Shown piece after piece: positions 2,713 to 27,618 of a stretch of DNA of 27,981 nt (its first letter is position 1; the number at the start of each line of letters is the position of its first letter). Source of the DNA: a virus; the IMG/VR virus record IMGVR_UViG_3300047174_000068, positions 1 to 27,981 of that record. The stretch is one strand, 5' to 3'. The notes below the pieces were generated by a model. The model made no database searches. It saw only the letters and a list, made by a program, of their open reading frames with translations, and had not been told where the DNA came from. A program made the position numbers and the translations under genes.

Positions 2713-5700
2713 TTAGTTCAATGCCGAGTTGTTGGCTTGCTGGAAGCCAGGGCTGGAAGGGTGCCCGATGGTCGGGGCGGGTAGTGCGCGGCGCGGCGGC
2801 GCTGCCAGCTTCATGGTCTGCGCGAGCATACGGGACGTGCCTGGCGACAGATGTGCTACCGTCTGACCGTTTTTGTCGACCAGGATGCCGGACCCGTCCT
2901 GCGGGTTCATACGCATATGATAACCACCTGAATAGAGATGCCCGGCGACAAAGTCGGCTTCCTGCGTGCCTTTGCCGTTCATGCCGCGCAAATCACCAAA
3001 CACGGCGCGGGCAGCGGCGTTCTGTGTCGGATCGCCGATGGCGGCTACCGTGGGTGTGATCGCCGGCTTGCCCAGCTCCGCGTTGATCGTTTTCTGATCG
3101 GCCGGCACGCCATTGCTGCCCAGCGCACCCTTGCCCGACCGGATCGCCGCCGCATCTATCGTGGCGTCCGCGCGCGTCGTGGCGTTGGACTGGCTGGTGG
3201 CGTTTCTCGCGAGTGACTCGGCGTATTTTGCTCGTGTAGCCTCGCGGCGTGCCTCGACCATATCGCCGAGATAATTGCCGTGCTGCTGATAGAACGATGT
3301 CTGTGCGGCCGACTGCGCGTGCTGGTCCATGAGCTGGAGCGCCTTGTTCGGATCGCGCGTCTGGATCATCATGCTCGCGACCGCGCCCGGCGTGATCTGA
3401 AACGCCTTGCCAATCGGTTTGCCCGTGTTTTCATCGAGACGCTCGGCCCAGACCTGACCTTTATCATCCACGCCGAAACGACCCATCGTGCCATCCGGCA
3501 TGAACGCGTGCGCTTTGGCGAGGAATTGCGCGGCACTGACACCGTCGCCGGCCTGGAGCGCACCATAGGCACCACGCAAATTCTCGCTCATGCCCTGATG
3601 CTGGATCTGGTAAACCATGTCGCGAACCTGCATCGCGGAGTTGACGTCACCCTTGGACAGAAAATCCGCCATGAGATTTGTCTCGGAAGCAGTCCAGGTG
3701 CGCGTGAGCGGTATGTTCGGGTTTGCTTGCGCGAGCATGCGGATCACGCCGTTCGGACCTTCTTTCTGCGCCGCGGCGGCGATGGCGTCGGCGCTCGGCG
3801 TTTGCACCGGCGGGGCAAAGTTTTTCGGCGCGTCGCCGTTGAAAACTTTTAGCGCATAGTCGTAGGCATGCTGCGTCGCGGGGTTGGAGAAATCACCTTT
3901 GGCGACTGCGGCAGCCGCACCTGGCCCACCGTTGTAAGCGACCGCTTTGAGAAACGGATCAAGGCCGGCGACGGCCGGCGTGTTGTAGTAGCGTGCGGCC
4001 AGCTCTGCACCGCCGGCGACCGTGTCGGGATTGATCTCGTGTTTTGGATCAATCGAGTCGCGGGTCGCCGAATTGATCTGGAACGGCCCCATATCGGTTG
4101 TGCCATTGGCGTTGTAATTGCGGATCGGTTGCCCGTTTGATCCCAACACGACTTTTGTCGGGTCATCACCGCTTAGCGCCATTCCGCTTTCGACGTTCCA
4201 GTTTGCGGCGAGCATATCGGGCGGGACGTTGTATTTATGCGCAATCGCATCAATCGTTTGTGCGACGCGAGGGGCACGATCGTTCACAGCCGCCCAAGGA
4301 CGTCCGTCCACGCCGGGTGTCGGATAGGCGACCGGGGCCTCGCTCGCAACGCTCGGGCCTTTCTGGTCAGGTGTTACTTTGGCAGCCGGCGCCGGCTCTG
4401 TTGTCGTTGTGCCTCCCGGCGCCGTAATGGCGCCCTTGGCAGCAGGCGCTGATGCGGTGTTTGCCGTGGCCGCTTGTTTGGCGGGAGCTGGCGCGTCGGC
4501 CGCCGCATCTTTTGGGCTGGCGTCTTGCGGCTCCTTATTCGCGCCCTCAAGCCAATTCAACGCACTTTTGGCGGCGCCAATAGCGCCCGTAACGATTTTC
4601 TCCGGGTGATACACGCCCGGCCCATCAATCAATCCATCGCTCGATTTCGCGTCGCTTCCGTCATCTGTTTTTGCCGGCGGCAGAACGCGTGTGCCGGGTG
4701 GCAACGAGCCTTTGGGCTCGTCGGCGTAGGCTGTCCCGACCGGGTTCAGAGCACCCAGAATTTTCGACCCGATGCTGGCGCTCGGTGTGGGTTGCGCGGG
4801 TTGCACGGGCTGCGCGATCTGGTTCGTGCTCGGCGGCAGCATGGTAGCGCCAGGTTGGAGCATGCCGCGCGCGCGGTCTTGCTGGAGTGGGACAGAGTCA
4901 CCGGCGGCCGGCGCCGGATAGGTCATGCCCTGCTGCGCGGGCGCCTGGGTCATCGTCGCGCCGGGCTGGAGCATCCCTTGCGCACGAGCCTGGCGCATCT
5001 GCGGCGTGTCGGCCGCCTGGGGCGCAGGGTATTGCTGGTTCGGCACGTCCGGTGCCGCCGCGTCCGGGCCTTGCGACAAAGGCGCTCCCTGCGGCTGCCC
5101 TGGCAGCGCCGATGCCGCACCGGCAGTTTGATACATTCCTGGTTGTTGTGGTGGTTGCCCTGGCTGCGACGGTTGAGCAGGTGGGTTGGTTGGGAGTGCC
5201 TGGCCGGGCGCCGGGTCGCCGGGCATGCGCTGCGGCGGCGAGGACAACGACTCAGGTGTCGGCTGCTCGTCGGACGATGGTGGTGTCGTGCTCTGCGGCT
5301 GCGGCTGGCCCAGCGGCGGAGTAACGCTCGCGGTCGCCAGAGGGATGGCGGAACTCCCTACCGTAGTGAGATCCTTATCCATGTCGGCGCTGATTGACGC
5401 CGGCGTCCATATCTCAGTGCCGGTCGACGAGCCCTGCTTGCCCGTGCCGGCGCCCGCGGTGCTCGCCTGCGTAGTCTTTGGTAACGACGTGAGCGGCTGG
5501 GATATAACCGGCGCTACAGGCGCAGTCGATTGCGTCGGCGGGGACACCGTGGCCGCGGGCTGCCCATACCCACCATCCGACGTGGTGTCGATCTGGGTGG
5601 TGGATGCTTGAGCCTGGGGGTTTTGTTGCTGGTTTGCGTCGGCGGCAGCGATCTCAGCCGCGACACCCTGCGCATCCTGGTTCATGCGCACTTCTTGGTC

Positions 5701-6721: not shown

Positions 6722-7182
6722 CAGGCGATCACCGGCTTGGGTGCCCAGAGCTTGCAGTTATGCTTGAGCCAGCGGCATTGATGCCGTTCCATGCTGAGTA
6801 TGATCAGGTCGCCATCCGGCACGGCATGTTTGATGCGCCCCTCGATCTGGAAACCTGCCCGGAGGTCTTGGGCCATGGCGATCTCATTGGTGGACGCGAC
6901 CGCGGCGATGACCTTGCGCACCGCGAGCTGGTTGAACGCGTAATCGAAAATCGTCCACATCAGGTCGCGCGAGCACCAGCGCGGGTCATCACCCGCCATG
7001 TGGACCTGGATGCTGGCGTGCAGGTAGCCCGAGAACACGAACCCGCCCAGACGGGTCTGACCGCGGTGAGCCATGAACACCACGTCGATGCCGGGAACGA
7101 ACACCCCGCTGGCGCGCGACATGACCCACTCGCCGTCGCCGGCGTGGTTGACGCGGATCGCTTTCACTACGGTAGTGGTCAT
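6721..7182 (-). CDS. GNAT-fold acetyltransferase-like protein in the tail module
   Basis: 153 aa. The C-terminal half has the N-acetyltransferase pattern: an RKVIAAVASTNEIAMAQDL stretch with a conserved Asn and helix, then GFQIEGRIKHAVPDGDLIILSMER, corresponding to the last strands of the fold (about residues 92-135). GNAT enzymes transfer an acetyl group from acetyl-CoA to amines; related genes are common next to podophage tail and ejection genes but their target is unknown. The start codon is followed at once by a copy of the dispersed palindrome (7166-7176), so the protein begins MTTTVVK. AGGGG about 6 nt upstream supports ATG 7182. The gene is 16 nt from the upstream stop and overlaps the next start by one base. 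Confidence 0.65.
   Translation of the reverse strand: MTTTVVKAIRVNHAGDGEWVMSRASGVFVPGIDVVFMAHRGQTRLGGFVFSGYLHASIQVHMAGDDPRWCSRDLMWTIFDYAFNQLAVRKVIAAVASTNEIAMAQDLRAGFQIEGRIKHAVPDGDLIILSMERHQCRWLKHNCKLWAPKPVIA
7166..7176. repeat. Dispersed palindrome, exact
   Basis: ACTAC-G-GTAGT followed by GGT; codons 2-6 of the GNAT-like gene, directly after its ATG. Confidence 0.75.
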
Positions 7183-11535: not shown

Positions 11536-11754
11536 TCAGAGCCCCCTGCTCGGCATCTTCTTGGAGACGCCATTGCGCGAAACCGCTTTCTTGAGCGCGA
11601 TCGGCCAGCCGGGGCTGGTCGGACCGGGGATCGCTTTCTGCGGCATCGACTTGCCCGGATTACCGCCCGAGTTGTTCGCCGGGTTGGAGCCCTTGCTCGC
11701 CGGGTCGACCGAGGTCGGACCGATTTTGCCTTTGGGTATGCCTTTGAGTGCCAT
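11536..11754 (-). CDS. 72-aa basic small protein
   Basis: ATG 11754 with AAGGAG 8 nt upstream, a strong ribosome-binding site, giving 72 aa: MALKGIPKGKIGPTS...KKMPSRGL. Gly/Pro/Lys-rich, probably largely unstructured. The open frame extends further upstream to 11829, but only this start has a good site. Two GGTC-N-GACC palindromes (11627-11635 and 11713-11721) lie inside it, both reading Gly-Pro-Thr. The GPT-rich, basic style resembles the small proteins encoded at 17302-17933. Function not recognised; minor structural protein is a guess from context. Confidence 0.6.
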   Translation of the reverse strand: MALKGIPKGKIGPTSVDPASKGSNPANNSGGNPGKSMPQKAIPGPTSPGWPIALKKAVSRNGVSKKMPSRGL

Positions 11755-15922: not shown

Positions 15923-15933
15923 ACAACAGTAGT
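15923..15933. repeat. Dispersed palindrome, exact to pattern, before capsid gene
   Basis: ACAAC-A-GTAGT followed by GGT; touches the AAAGG ribosome-binding site of the major capsid gene and overlaps the edge of the scaffold stop. Confidence 0.7.
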
Positions 15934-17622: not shown

Positions 17623-17933
17623 CACATCTCGCCCTTGCCGACGCCCTCGGTGGCGTAGCCCAGCTTGCTCCGGTCGTTCATCGGGTTCATGCGGCCGGCG
17701 TCCATGTTGGGTTTGCTACCCTTGGGGTAGGACCGGGATGACCCGGTCGGACCTTCGCCTTGACCCGAGGCAGGGCCGCCGGAAATCATCTCCAGCTTGG
17801 CCTCGCCCAGCTCCTTGGAGCCCGCCTTTCCCATGCTCATGGACCCGGCGTTGTCGGTCGGACCCTTTTTCGGGAAGACCGTTTTCTGGTCCTCGTAGTC
17901 GGTGTCGTCGGACGTCATCGGCATGTTAGCCAT
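17622..17933 (-). CDS. 103-aa Gly/Ser/Met-rich small protein after portal
   Basis: MANMPMTSDDTDYEDQKTVFPKKGPTDNAG... ATG 17933 lies inside the end of the portal gene (8-base overlap). Low complexity, polar, with many Met and Gly; no membrane segment. Three GGTC-N-GACC-type palindromes fall in or next to Gly-Pro-Thr codons. It resembles the next small protein downstream in style. Function unknown. Confidence 0.55.
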   Translation of the reverse strand: MANMPMTSDDTDYEDQKTVFPKKGPTDNAGSMSMGKAGSKELGEAKLEMISGGPASGQGEGPTGSSRSYPKGSKPNMDAGRMNPMNDRSKLGYATEGVGKGEM

Positions 17934-20100
17934 TGAACGGTGCTCCTTGCTGGAATGAGTTGACCGGCGGCGCGTTGTCGCTGTGCTGCGCCGGCGTGGG
18001 CTGGGGCGGCTGGTTGCCCATCGCCTGCTGCTGCGGGTTGTGTCCGCCCGGTTTGCCGTGGGTCGGACCGCCAGGTGGACCCCCCTGCCCTCCCCCCAAA
18101 GCTGCCTGCGCGGCCTGAACCTGCTTCTGCGCCTGTATTTGCGACTGTAGTGTTTGATCGTCCGGCACGATGTCGTCGGGTAGACCCAGACCCTGCGCCA
18201 GCGCGCGGAGCAGACGCGCGCGTCCGACCTCGCCGACGAGCTGGATATCCACCGGGTTGGACGTGAGCTGCAAAAACTGGAGCTGCTTCTGGCGCTCGGT
18301 ATCCTTGGCCGCGGCCACCCCGACGCCCTTGACCTGGATCTGCTCCTGGCCGGTGAGCATGCCGGACGTGTCGGTCAGCATGATCATGTCATACAGCTCG
18401 CGCAGACACGGTTCGAGCACATCGGCGTCGACGTTCGACGCCACGGTCTGGAGGATTTTGTCGGCGTTGCCCATGAGCTGGGAAAGCCCTGACGCGGTCC
18501 GACCGGCACCCGAGTTGACCCCCTGCCCCGTCATGTAGCGCGGCACGCCCGAGATGTCGTCGGCCAGCACGCCCATCTGCTGGTATACCTGGAGAAGCTC
18601 CTGCGCGTTGCTCTGCGGCTGGAAAAAACTGATCGGCTGACCGCCATTGCCGCCGGCCATCGGATCGCGGATCACATGCCAGCGTTTCCACGGATACAGC
18701 TCATCGGTGTCGGCGTTGGGTGCGACCGCGTCGTCGTCGATCACGACCTGCGGGCCTGAGCTAATGCTCATGTTGTTGACCAGCGAACGCAACGTCGCGT
18801 TGCTGACTTCCTGGATGTCCTCAAGAAGATCACTCAGCGCATGGCCGGCGACGGTGCCCGGCACCTTCTCGAAACTGGTCACGTAGTAGGGGTGGCGCTG
18901 GCGCAGCGACGGGTTGATCTGCGTCTTGATCGTGTAGCGCCCGATGACCCAGGTCTGCACCGAGTAATCCCGGTCCGGGTCGGGGATCATTTTCTGGTCC
19001 ACCCCGTATTGAAGCAGGGTCATACCCTGCATCCGACCAGTGTAGGCGAGGCAGTCGATGATGCCGGACTGGTTGAAATTAGGGTCTTCACGCCCCTCGT
19101 TGCGGGCCTGCTCGGAGTCCGTGGAGTCCCACCAGTCCCGGAACCCGTTCGGGTAGGACGTCAGCACCCCGCGGATCGCGTTCTGGTCATACCCCGGCAC
19201 ATCCATGAGTGCGTTCAGGTCTGCCCTGGTCAGACGCTGCCGCTCGATGATGTCAGCCTCGGAGATGTCGGACACGCCCGGCGTCCAGTAGATATTGAAC
19301 GGGCTCACCCGGTCCCAGCACAATGTCGGCGTTTGCCGCATGCTGGCTTGGTTGTTGATCCACTGGATTTGCGGCAGCATCCGCACGGTCGGACCTTTGA
19401 TGCACGCAAACGGAAAAATCGGCAGGTCGGTCAAAAACGCCCGCAGCGCCTCATAGAACCCGCCTTGGCGGAGAATATCCTCGACCTTGTTTGACGCCGA
19501 CGCTGCCTGCTCCATGGCCTGGCGCCGGGCCGCCTGCTCCGCCGAGTGCATCAGACCCATGACGCGCATATGCACCTGGTCCTGTATCACCGGCTGGCCC
19601 GCTTGCTTGAGGTTCGCGACCTCGCTGGCAACGAGCTGCATGATGTTCGCCCGGATCTCCGGTGGGACCGGCGGGTCTACCTGCGGGTCGATGTCCCACG
19701 GGCGCTCACCCGATAGGTAGACCTGGCGCAGCAGCGACGATGCACCGCGGCATTTGACGGCGACGATGCGGGCATACACCCGCGATCCGCCGAACTTCTG
19801 GATCTGTGCATATTGCTGGGGATTGTATTTCCCCTCAAACATGCGCTGGCAGCGCAAGAGCCGCTCGTTGAGCGGGTCGTCGCCCATATTCCGGGCGTTA
19901 CGAAATACGTTCCACTGTTTGTTGACGTAGGACGCGATGTCCGGGACGCCGCTATCGGGCGGCGGCACGACGGATGCCTGTGCGTCAAGCTGATCCTGCT
20001 TGGTGAGCGCGCCGCTCCCGACCACGCGAAGCAGGCCCTTGCGGGTCGCCACTGGCGGCGATGAACTGGTCTGACCTGGCAGTGCCTGCGGCACACCCAT
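17926..20100 (-). CDS. Portal protein
   Basis: 724 aa, nearly the same length as the P22 portal (725 aa). Features: YVNKQWNVFRNARN near residue 60, a clip/stem region with FACIKGPTVRML and SPFNIYWTPGVSDISEADIIERQRLTR, and late in the protein GVPRYMTGQGVNSGAGRTASGLSQLMGNADKIL, a pattern common to podophage portals (G..RTA.G.S.L). The C-terminus is Gln/Gly/Pro-rich. It forms the dodecameric ring at the packaging vertex and docks the terminase. ATG 20100 directly touches an AAAGG, a poor spacing; the in-frame GTG at 20094 would have a 6-nt spacer and may be the true start. First gene of the leftward late operon, divergent from terminase. Confidence 0.9.
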   Translation of the reverse strand: MGVPQALPGQTSSSPPVATRKGLLRVVGSGALTKQDQLDAQASVVPPPDSGVPDIASYVNKQWNVFRNARNMGDDPLNERLLRCQRMFEGKYNPQQYAQIQKFGGSRVYARIVAVKCRGASSLLRQVYLSGERPWDIDPQVDPPVPPEIRANIMQLVASEVANLKQAGQPVIQDQVHMRVMGLMHSAEQAARRQAMEQAASASNKVEDILRQGGFYEALRAFLTDLPIFPFACIKGPTVRMLPQIQWINNQASMRQTPTLCWDRVSPFNIYWTPGVSDISEADIIERQRLTRADLNALMDVPGYDQNAIRGVLTSYPNGFRDWWDSTDSEQARNEGREDPNFNQSGIIDCLAYTGRMQGMTLLQYGVDQKMIPDPDRDYSVQTWVIGRYTIKTQINPSLRQRHPYYVTSFEKVPGTVAGHALSDLLEDIQEVSNATLRSLVNNMSISSGPQVVIDDDAVAPNADTDELYPWKRWHVIRDPMAGGNGGQPISFFQPQSNAQELLQVYQQMGVLADDISGVPRYMTGQGVNSGAGRTASGLSQLMGNADKILQTVASNVDADVLEPCLRELYDMIMLTDTSGMLTGQEQIQVKGVGVAAAKDTERQKQLQFLQLTSNPVDIQLVGEVGRARLLRALAQGLGLPDDIVPDDQTLQSQIQAQKQVQAAQAALGGGQGGPPGGPTHGKPGGHNPQQQAMGNQPPQPTPAQHSDNAPPVNSFQQGAPFNG
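18141..18151. repeat. Dispersed palindrome, weak
   Basis: GCGAC-T-GTAGT near the 3' end of the portal gene; read as Thr-Leu-Gln-Ser. One arm mismatch and no flanking GGT, so it may be chance. Confidence 0.25.
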
Positions 20101-20113
20101 CCTTTCGTTGTTT

Positions 20114-20124
20114 ACTACGGTAGT
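20114..20124. promoter_or_regulatory. Dispersed palindrome in divergent portal/terminase control region
   Basis: ACTAC-G-GTAGT followed by GGTT, the only recognisable element between the leftward portal start (20100) and the rightward small terminase. On the minus strand a TGGACA lies upstream, as TTGACG does at 26955. The surrounding 21 bases (20108-20128) match 23227-23247 read on the other strand. Confidence 0.75.
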
Positions 20125-24645: not shown

Positions 24646-24655
24646 AACACTGACC

Positions 24656-24706
24656 CCCTGCGGACTGCGCACGGGCGCGTCCTCGGGCTTGCGCGGTGCC
24701 CGCGCA
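24656..24706 (-). repeat. Leader repeat, copy A
   Basis: On the minus strand: hairpin GCGCGG-GCA-CCGCGC, then GAGGAC-GCGC-CCGT-GCGC-A-GTC (second hairpin), then CGCAGGG, which serves as Shine-Dalgarno for ATG 24645. Shares both hairpins with copy D. Confidence 0.7.
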
Positions 24707-24895
24707 TTATTTGCGCATCTTGGAGAGCGTCTCGGCGAACCGGGCCTCTTTGGCGACGCGTGAGTCCCCGCCGGCGGCAGCTTTGGCGATCTTGCTTTTA
24801 GGTATGGTCTGCCCGGCAGGCACACCCAGAGCCTTGTGGAGCGCGCCGGGCCGCTTGATCGCCTTGCTGATGTTGAGGGTCTTCTTGCCGGCCAC
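24707..24895 (-). CDS. 62-aa basic conserved phage protein
   Basis: GTG 24895 with GGAG 8 nt upstream: (M)AGKKTLNISKAIKRPGALHKALGVPAGQTIPKSKIAKAA... The core GALHKALGVP-G--IP-SKI--A recalls small Lys-rich proteins found in many tailed phages, function unknown. The frame is open upstream through two tandem 38-bp leader repeats, and ATG 24949 could also serve as start, but the conserved-looking part begins at KKTLNI. A GGTC-N-GAC palindrome (24897-24905) touches the start codon. Confidence 0.6.
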   Translation of the reverse strand: MAGKKTLNISKAIKRPGALHKALGVPAGQTIPKSKIAKAAAGGDSRVAKEARFAETLSKMRK

Positions 24896-24909: not shown

Positions 24910-24947
24910 ATGTTGACGCCCTGCGGGCCGCGCACGGGCGCGTCCTC
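24910..24947 (-). repeat. Leader repeat, copy B (tandem unit 1)
   Basis: 38-bp unit; 36 of 38 bases match copy C, which adjoins it. It holds the GACGCGCCCGTGCGC hairpin and the GCAGGGCGTCA end, 15 nt upstream of GTG 24895. Confidence 0.75.
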
Positions 24948-24985
24948 ATGTTGACGCCCTGCAGACCGCGCACGGGCGCGTCCTC
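24948..24985 (-). repeat. Leader repeat, copy C (tandem unit 2)
   Basis: Second 38-bp unit. Because 38 is not a multiple of three, the two units are read in different frames, so the repeat is not kept as protein. Confidence 0.75.
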
Positions 24986-25013
24986 GGGCTAACCAATACT
25001 GGACTCATCGAAT

Positions 25014-25024
25014 ACTACCGTTGT
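25014..25024. repeat. Dispersed palindrome, exact, intergenic
   Basis: ACTAC-C-GTTGT between the stop of the ribbon-helix-helix gene and the tandem leader repeats. Confidence 0.7.
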
Positions 25025-25615: not shown

Positions 25616-26014
25616 CTACCCTCCGCGATGCGTGTTCAACGCGCGGTTGGTCGCGCTTATGACCCCTCGCACCTGCTCTCGTATCACTTCTGGATCGTCT
25701 TGCACACGTTTGCCGTGCTGCGCGATCGTGAGGGCGCGCGCCAGCCCGTCGTGCGCTGCCTTGAGCCGCCGCAGCAGCTCCGCGATGTCACCATCGAGCG
25801 GGATGCGGATCTGAACACGAGTGTCGTCGTGCCCGTGTTTTACGCCCTGCGGACTGCGCACGAGCGCGTCCTCATGCTCGCGCGGTGCCCGCGCATCTTT
25901 TGCGGGTAGGTGGATTACATTTATATTTTTAGTCAAAGACGTCCTCGTTTTGCGACATTCACTACGTTGGCGTTCTATCATAATCACGCGGCACGTGGCG
26001 TCAATCACATACAA
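25616..26014 (-). CDS. Hypothetical protein, start uncertain
   Basis: Open frame of 132 codons from ATG 26014 to the stop at 25616. Only the last 70 residues look like a protein: TRVQIRIPLDGDIAELLRRLKAAHDGLARALTIAQHGKRV...EVIREQVRGVISATNRAL, an amphipathic helical domain after a short strand. The middle part is the translation of the leader repeat (25845-25896), whose other copies lie before start codons. By analogy the true start lies after the repeat, but no ATG, GTG or TTG is in frame there; GTG 25864 inside the repeat is the nearest. It may therefore be a decayed gene that has lost its start. Function unknown. Confidence 0.35.
   Translation of the reverse strand: MYVIDATCRVIMIERQRSECRKTRTSLTKNINVIHLPAKDARAPREHEDALVRSPQGVKHGHDDTRVQIRIPLDGDIAELLRRLKAAHDGLARALTIAQHGKRVQDDPEVIREQVRGVISATNRALNTHRGG
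25845..25896 (-). repeat. Leader repeat, copy D
   Basis: Same two-hairpin structure as copy A (GAC-GCGC-TCGT-GCGC-A-GTC) followed by CGCAGGGCGT, but no in-frame start codon follows, in line with a decayed gene downstream. Confidence 0.65.
25961..25973. repeat. Variant element ACWACRTTGGYGT, copy 3
   Basis: ACTACGTTGGCGT, between the start of the doubtful gene 25616-26014 and its leader repeat. Confidence 0.4.
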
Positions 26015-26585: not shown

Positions 26586-26822
26586 TTATTTTTCTTCTTT
26601 TGTGGGCAGTTTTTTGAACGTCAGTTCCCACCCCAGCGCGCGGGCATATGCGTTCAAATTTTCGACTGTGGGCACAACACCCATGAACACCCATTGCTCG
26701 ACCATGCGCGGGCTGAGCCCTGCTTCGCGAGCTGTCGTCTCACGCTTCTTGTTCACGGCCAGGCGGTATCGCTCGATCTGATCGACCAGGGGGTTGATCG
26801 GGCGTTTCGGGCGACCTGGCAT
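26586..26822 (-). CDS. Xre/Cro-type repressor-like protein
   Basis: 78 aa. MPGRPKRP basic N-terminal arm (AT-hook-like), then a helix-turn-helix at about residues 28-48 (TTAREAGLSPRMVEQWVFMG) followed by PTVENLNAYARALGWEL, the usual helix 4 of the lambda-repressor-like fold, and a short charged tail. Cro-sized. AGGA 4 nt before ATG 26822. Palindrome copies lie just after its stop codon (26568-26578) and 130 nt upstream in a promoter (26955-26965), which makes it a good candidate to bind the dispersed palindrome; this is inference. Confidence 0.7.
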   Translation of the reverse strand: MPGRPKRPINPLVDQIERYRLAVNKKRETTAREAGLSPRMVEQWVFMGVVPTVENLNAYARALGWELTFKKLPTKEEK

Positions 26823-26946: not shown

Positions 26947-26974
26947 AGGGTATTACGACGGTAGTGGTCGTCAA
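26947..26974 (-). promoter_or_regulatory. Leftward promoter with palindrome in spacer
   Basis: Minus strand TTGACG (26969-26974), 16-nt spacer, TACCCT (26947-26952, three of six to TATAAT). The palindrome 26955-26965 fills the spacer, a classical repressor position. It would drive leftward transcription toward the Xre-like gene. Confidence 0.45.
26955..26965. promoter_or_regulatory. Dispersed palindrome in promoter spacer
   Basis: ACGAC-G-GTAGT followed by GGT, exactly between TTGACG and the -10-like box of a leftward promoter. Confidence 0.7.
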
Positions 26975-27126: not shown

Positions 27127-27137
27127 ACAACCGTCGT
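27127..27137. promoter_or_regulatory. Dispersed palindrome, exact to pattern, intergenic
   Basis: ACAAC-C-GTCGT followed by GGTTT, in the noncoding block before the rightward genes. Confidence 0.65.
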
Positions 27138-27288: not shown

Positions 27289-27293
27289 TGCCT

Positions 27294-27368
27294 GGGTCTA
27301 GGGCTTACGATCACAACCGTTGTGGTTTGTCAGCGCCCTACTGATGAGCCCCAACTAGGGCGAAACCC
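27294..27368 (+). ncRNA. Type III hammerhead ribozyme
   Basis: All conserved parts are present in order. Stem III 5' strand GGGT (27294-27297), cleavage triplet GTC with cut after C27298, stem I TAGGGC (27299-27304) pairing with GCCCTA (27335-27340), core CTGATGA (27341-27347), stem II GCCC (27348-27351) / GGGC (27358-27361) with six-base loop CAACTA, core GAAA (27362-27365), and stem III 3' strand ACCC (27365-27368), whose A pairs with T27297. The 10.1-11.1 pair is G-C as required. Stem I continues, after an internal loop, into an 8-bp helix made largely of a palindrome copy (27313-27323). Ends are in stem III, hence type III. Cleavage would give a 3' RNA starting at 27299 that carries the small gene at 27370. 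Identified from core motif and pairing only; activity not shown. Confidence 0.93.
27313..27323. promoter_or_regulatory. Dispersed palindrome inside hammerhead stem I
   Basis: ACAAC-C-GTTGT followed by GGTTT. In RNA it folds CACAA/TTGTG with a CCG loop and forms the outer helix of ribozyme stem I. Confidence 0.75.
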
Positions 27369-27369
27369 G

Positions 27370-27618
27370 ATGCCACATAGCAATGGTTTCCAAGAACCGG
27401 CGCCGGTTAAAATCAACGCGAAGTTTCTGCTCGCACCGCCGCCGCCCGACACCATTACGATACCGCCGGGTTTCATCATTACCAAATGCGCGGCTCGTAT
27501 CGCACACGGCGCGCGCAAGCCGCGATCGTATTGTCCTGGCGGTGCAACCGCCACAGGCGACGCAATCAATCGTGGCCAGCACTTCAAAGTTCGCAATCTC
27601 GCAGCTAAAGGATGGTAA
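27370..27618 (+). CDS. 82-aa protein downstream of hammerhead ribozyme
   Basis: ATG 27370 lies one base after stem III of the ribozyme; AGGG (27357-27360) at 9 nt is the only Shine-Dalgarno candidate and is part of ribozyme stem II. MPHSNGFQEPAPVKINAKFLLAPPPPDTITIPPGF... ending HFKVRNLAAKGW. Short, Pro/Ala-rich, with two Cys; no family recognised. First gene of the rightward group at the right edge, 4 bases before the next start. Early-gene status is inferred from its position opposite to the late operon. Confidence 0.55.
   Translation: MPHSNGFQEPAPVKINAKFLLAPPPPDTITIPPGFIITKCAARIAHGARKPRSYCPGGATATGDAINRGQHFKVRNLAAKGW

Follow-up and report, generated by a model that had tools for sequence, protein, structure and literature searches.

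Hairpin promoters of the N4 type are short inverted repeats with a 3-base centre that lie near gene starts. A second class of gene-start element acts at the level of RNA: type III hammerhead ribozymes occur in phages and bacteria, share an invariant core, a GUC triplet and an open stem III, and in phages occupy intergenic locations by a gene start (RF00008; Perreault et al. 2011, PMC3088659). The hammerhead of the haloviruses HF1 and HF2 lies 13 nt upstream of the helicase start codon, and the 5' end of a transcript was mapped near its cleavage site (PMC3088659). A third class is represented by the stoperators of cluster A mycobacteriophages, which are asymmetric 13-mers present as many short, dispersed sites, with an excess in the intergenic spaces by gene starts (PMC9283540).

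The locus described here resembles all three classes in part. The window (the whole 27,981-nt stretch analysed, record IMGVR_UViG_3300047174_000068) comes from a podovirus-like phage, of which it is a 28-kb fragment, and its portal gene (17926-20100, minus strand) matches the SU10 portal family. A search for named phages with DNA resembling that of the window found none, and by terminase the nearest named phages are Rhizobium phages, at about 41% identity. Relatives were gathered through portal and terminase searches, which gave 130 loci on partly shared contigs, all of them uncultivated. Our reading is that two gene-start elements probably overlap ahead of one small open reading frame (ORF) of the window, namely a type III hammerhead and a dispersed palindromic site that is putatively bound by protein as DNA.

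A type III hammerhead abutting a start codon

The element at 27293-27369 (plus strand) combines a CUGANGA...GAAA core, a UH cleavage site and three stems of which stem III is open. It is, judged from its sequence, a genuine type III hammerhead with predicted self-cleavage, an assignment based on the core and three stems, synteny, shuffled controls and RF00008 matches in relatives. Its elements are stem III (UGGGU/ACCCG), the GUC cleavage triplet, stem I (UAGGGC/GCCCUA), the core segments CUGAUGA and GAAA, and stem II, which reads GCCC-CAACUA-GGGC at 27348-27361 (plus strand); the predicted cleavage falls between C27298 and U27299. Among 600 shuffled windows, a single one gave a hammerhead-like architecture, and 14 pairs were never reached. 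The minimum-free-energy fold of the region includes all three stems, and its folding energy is unremarkable alone (z = -0.42).

At the gathering score Rfam returned no match in the window, the RF00008 cut-off being a curated and not a mechanistic one. When the threshold was relaxed, the only model to match the window was the differently permuted HH9 (27 bits, E = 2.3e-4). The window presumably falls below the RF00008 score because its 42-nt stem I misfits the model. Taking the alignment to HH9, a type I model, as a true permutation was rejected in favor of the type III reading, which has perfect stems, synteny and RF00008 matches.

The start codon of the small ORF (27370-27618, plus strand; 82 aa) directly follows stem III. 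The ORF had no match in PHROG, and its homologues are found in the relatives L005 (62 aa) and L343 (92 aa), with a weaker match in G055/G077. The portal and terminase of L005 are 69% and 72% identical to those of the window, and the terminases of L343 and G077/G055 are about 58% and 61% identical, respectively. A hammerhead precedes this same ORF in all four phages, lying at 966-914 in L005 (minus strand), at 3261-3327 in L343 and at 18867-18817 of locus L399 in G077/G055 (minus strand). RF00008 matches the L005 copy with E = 1.1e-5 (39.6 bits) and the L343 copy with E = 0.014 (28.7 bits), against a gathering score of 48.5, while the G077 hammerhead has the core CUGACGA and one extra U ahead of stem II. 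The stem strands of the four ribozymes were matched by hand, automatic DNA alignments having misaligned stem I, and 59 of 60 cells proved to be paired (15 stem pairs in four phages). Several of these pairs have changed on both sides with pairing kept.

In three of the four phages (the window, L005 and L343) the ribozyme abuts the start codon (GAAACCCGATG, GAAACCTAATG). The 3' strand of stem II stands at Shine-Dalgarno distance from the ATG, with AGGG in the window (ATG at 27370) and AAGGA in L005 and L343, and we infer that this strand may serve as the ribosome-binding site. The hammerhead would self-cleave in the leader of a rightward transcript. The cut would fall after C27298, and the mRNA left behind would start with stem I, followed by stem II and, a few bases on, by the start codon. 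Such an mRNA would be freed of the stem III partner strand that masks the bases before the ATG. So close to the start codon, stem II and the likely ribosome-binding site share bases, which makes a role of these hammerheads in translation directly testable.

Type III hammerheads were also seen in unrelated viral contigs, at L302:3555 (plus strand) and at L176:11252 and L176:9758 (minus strand). In these an ATG lies 2 nt past GAAACC and the 3' strand of stem II is in the Shine-Dalgarno place. It may be that hammerheads are recurrently fused to ribosome-binding sites.

A dispersed palindrome at gene starts

The earlier note had described a genome-wide ACNAC-N-GTNGT palindrome, and the counts bear this out: ACNACNGTNGT has 15 exact matches in the window versus 0.26 +/- 0.58 in shuffles, and none of 100 shuffled windows had 15. 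Three exact copies fall within about 500 bp in the divergent intergenic region that holds the ribozyme (palindromic copies are given without strand). These are ACGACGGTAGT at 26955-26965, ACAACCGTCGT at 27127-27137, which is upstream of the ribozyme and has an aligned copy in L005 at 1232, and ACAACCGTTGT at 27313-27323, which is followed by GGTTT and lies within stem I just as the earlier note had it. Another copy (20114-20124) precedes the start of the portal gene by 13 bp. A further one (15923-15933), in the gap between the scaffold-like and major head genes, sits just upstream of a Shine-Dalgarno sequence and is in the same place in L006 (5935). Among the copies inside coding sequence, the one near the scaffold-like gene start is shared by the window, L005 and L006 and is conserved at the DNA level.

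Whole records of many relatives are likewise rich in the palindrome when compared with a reversed-pattern control (20 to 1 in G016 and 14 to 0 in G021). When genes were called simply as longest ORFs, 25 of 74 sites fell between genes versus 7.5 expected, a 3.3-fold enrichment. A predicted start codon follows within 90 bp of 17 of these 25, commonly at 6-60 bp. Many copies fall within coding sequence, for example at window positions 7166, 16867 and 22617, L006:5023 and L005:9873, where they encode runs such as T-T-T-V-V. The flanks of the window sites are weakly asymmetric. Near-copies at window positions 5357 and 11397 have a common extended sequence, CCTACCGTAGTGAGATC, and may form a palindrome sub-class distinguished by its flank.

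Two variants were found among the relatives. The G077 family motif, ACTACNGTAAT, has 20 copies, about a dozen of which precede an open start codon by no more than 25 nt, many of them by 8-25 nt. This variant is strongly biased in strand (17 copies to 3), which may parallel the orientation of stoperators with transcription (PMC9283540). The window palindrome, a putative repressor site, resembles the stoperators in its distribution, with many scattered copies and an excess between genes, but is an 11-bp near-perfect palindrome and belongs to another phage group. In the early-gene region of G077, the directional near-palindrome AACTACCGTAAT occurs many times, for example on the minus strand at 18814, 18468, 16910, 16335 and 14012 of locus L399 (G077:35500-55000), and looks like a stoperator-type or leader element. 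The second variant, the spacerless TACTACGTAGTA, occupies five distinct places in the relatives' records (G053:19474, 21174 and 21759; L006:3679; L343:3276), versus about 0.15 by chance on our own estimate. It coexists with the one-base-spacer family in two of those three phages.

Whether the palindrome is read as DNA or as RNA can be judged from its arms. A hairpin function would make the arms covary, and those of the window copies do not: the variable arm positions are paired in 7 of 15 copies versus 6.5 expected under independence, and in 8 of 15 arm positions 2 and 8 do not form a Watson-Crick pair. Pooled across the genomes of relatives, the arms are paired in 46 of 64 sites versus 39 expected, an excess that can stem from mixing genomes with different preferred letters. 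The G077 motif ACTACNGTAAT is unable to form a full hairpin. A general function of the palindrome as RNA, one of the two options in the earlier note, is thus contradicted, and a general RNA-hairpin role was rejected. The same observation separates the palindrome from N4-type hairpin promoters, which it resembles as an inverted repeat with a 3-base centre, since its arms do not keep pairing. The palindrome is most likely a gene-start regulatory element and a putative protein-bound double-stranded DNA site. Alternatively, it may act in single-stranded RNA, as an element ahead of ribosome-binding sites. If it is a DNA site, copies at or just upstream of gene starts would be bound in double-stranded form by a phage regulator. 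An HTH_3 protein encoded at 26586-26822 is a candidate binder; it had no match in 41 relatives, and no binder could be linked to the palindrome. The comparison suggests that gene-start palindromes of an uncharacterised family are spread across a large group of uncultivated podoviruses.

The palindrome in and beside stem I

Stem I of the window (27299-27340, plus strand) consists of UAGGGC...GCCCUA, an internal loop and an outer hairpin, and at 42 nt it exceeds every other credible stem I in a set of 83 distinct type III hammerhead candidates from viral contigs. RNA folding reproduced exactly the outer helix predicted by the earlier note, an 8-bp extension with a CCG loop at 27309-27327 (plus strand) that is built from the palindrome and its flank. 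Its strands are GAUCACAA (27309-27316) and UUGUGGUU (27320-27327), U-G and G-U pairs included.

Stem I is 14-22 nt long in 80 of the 83 candidates, the range of known type III hammerheads, from which the window also departs in having its stem I tipped by a genome-wide DNA palindrome and in scoring under the Rfam gathering thresholds. The only credible stems I above 22 nt are those of the window and L343 (31 nt), and both are tipped by ACNAC/GTNGT palindromes; a 98-nt candidate in L352 has weak stems and was taken as chance. Long stems I are thus rare and confined to this syntenic group among the candidates surveyed. The L343 tip carries TACTACGTAGTA and is the perfect palindrome TTACTACGTAGTAA, with window-type half-sites minus the central base. 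An exact copy of ACNACNGTNGT was not found in the 6.2 kb of L343, and its palindrome, with a spacer of 0 instead of 1, likely belongs to the site family of the window.

The other two syntenic ribozymes have ordinary stems I of 17 nt without a palindrome, and in both the palindrome or a near match lies close by. L005 has an exact palindrome, ACTACGGTTGT, just inside the ORF (12 nt past the ATG), and the 3' strand of its stem I together with the core contains a 10-of-11 match, ACAACCGTGCT. In G077 the one-mismatch near-palindrome ACTACCGTAAT lies between the ribozyme and the ATG, 11 nt ahead of the latter. A palindrome or near-palindrome is therefore found within or beside the ribozyme in all four phages, and from this comparison its presence by the ORF start is the constant feature, while placement in stem I is not. 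The earlier note had asked whether homologous stems I keep the palindrome; two do (the window and L343) and two do not (L005 and G077). It had also proposed that the link would be accidental if relatives had the ribozyme but lacked any palindrome, the palindrome family being present elsewhere. Such relatives were not encountered among the four, yet stem I plainly does not require the palindrome and, on sequence comparison, tolerates it.

How might a DNA site come to lie in a ribozyme? One possibility is plain coincidence, whereby a frequent palindrome fell into one stem I with no bearing on the ribozyme. The local density of copies is high enough that chance placement in a loop of about 30 nt would occur in 10-20% of cases, a rough estimate for the window alone, and the stems I of L005 and G077 are normal. 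The overlap is seen, however, in two of four syntenic ribozymes with differing palindrome sequences, the same two have the only credible long stems I among the 83 candidates, and even the stem I and core of L005 hold the 10-of-11 match. We consider coincidence unlikely on balance.

An alternative is that selection as RNA, for tertiary contact with loop II, gave the long stem I as an ordinary extended hammerhead stem, and that its likeness to the palindrome is secondary. Tertiary contacts between loop II and a stem I internal loop are standard in fast hammerheads (PMC3088659), and both long stems I have UU at the 5' side of the internal loop, as does the L005 loop. Selection for RNA pairing alone would not account for tips that are both exact ACNAC/GTNGT, or for the unpaired ACGU tetraloop of L343, which extends the DNA palindrome beyond what RNA pairing would demand (1 in 16 by chance). 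This alternative is scarcely probable.

The reading that we prefer, and the best one in our judgment, is that the ribozyme accommodates a DNA site at the tip of stem I, the one position in it that tolerates self-complementary insertions. RNA transcribed from a DNA palindrome pairs with itself, its two halves being complementary, and the stem I tip can hold such a sequence without harm to the fold. A palindrome that needs room by the same gene start would find its natural place there. Support for accommodation comes from the four syntenic ribozymes found, and the alternative offered by the earlier note, a DNA site recruited into the ribozyme, is supported likewise by the ACTAC/GTAGT tip of L343 and by the palindrome or near match adjacent to the other two ribozymes. 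The ribozyme is predicted to be active, and a putative palindrome-binding protein may exert a regulatory effect. The locus offers a compact natural case of one short sequence with two readings: it probably serves as a site in DNA, and once transcribed it belongs to a catalytic RNA. The comparison of the four phages shows such overlap coming and going.

A more elaborate proposal, which the earlier note raised in outline, is that a regulator couples transcription to cleavage, either by pausing or repressing transcription when bound to the DNA or by altering cleavage when bound to the RNA hairpin. The palindrome lies inside the ribozyme, 46 bp upstream of the ORF start, and palindromes cluster at gene starts. 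A precedent for dual binding exists in TetR, a repressor reported to bind a selected RNA aptamer as well as its operator DNA (PMC7102968). Against coupling, the binder is putative only, two syntenic ribozymes are without the site in stem I, and copies elsewhere show no RNA-hairpin constraint, so that we regard it as very unlikely. Its strictest form, in which the same 11 bases are both a DNA operator and a regulated stem I tip through which one protein sets transcription and leader self-cleavage, is hardly to be expected.

Additional hammerheads and repeats

Outside the syntenic group, L320 was the sole other viral contig with a palindrome beside a hammerhead. It belongs to an unrelated AT-rich phage, its palindrome overlaps a stem III strand and is the single copy in 12 kb, and it was set aside. 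Bacterial genomes gave two loose pattern matches, neither of them hammerhead-like.

A dispersed direct repeat, GC-rich and up to 63 nt long (ACGCCCTGCGGACTGCGCACGGGCGCGTCCTC...), is also present in the window, with four copies around small minus-strand genes and positions at 24653-24715, 24916-25016 and 25842-25904. In L191, four closely related type I hammerheads are located at 11649, 12072, 12604 and 13138. They are spaced 420-535 nt apart and probably frame single genes.
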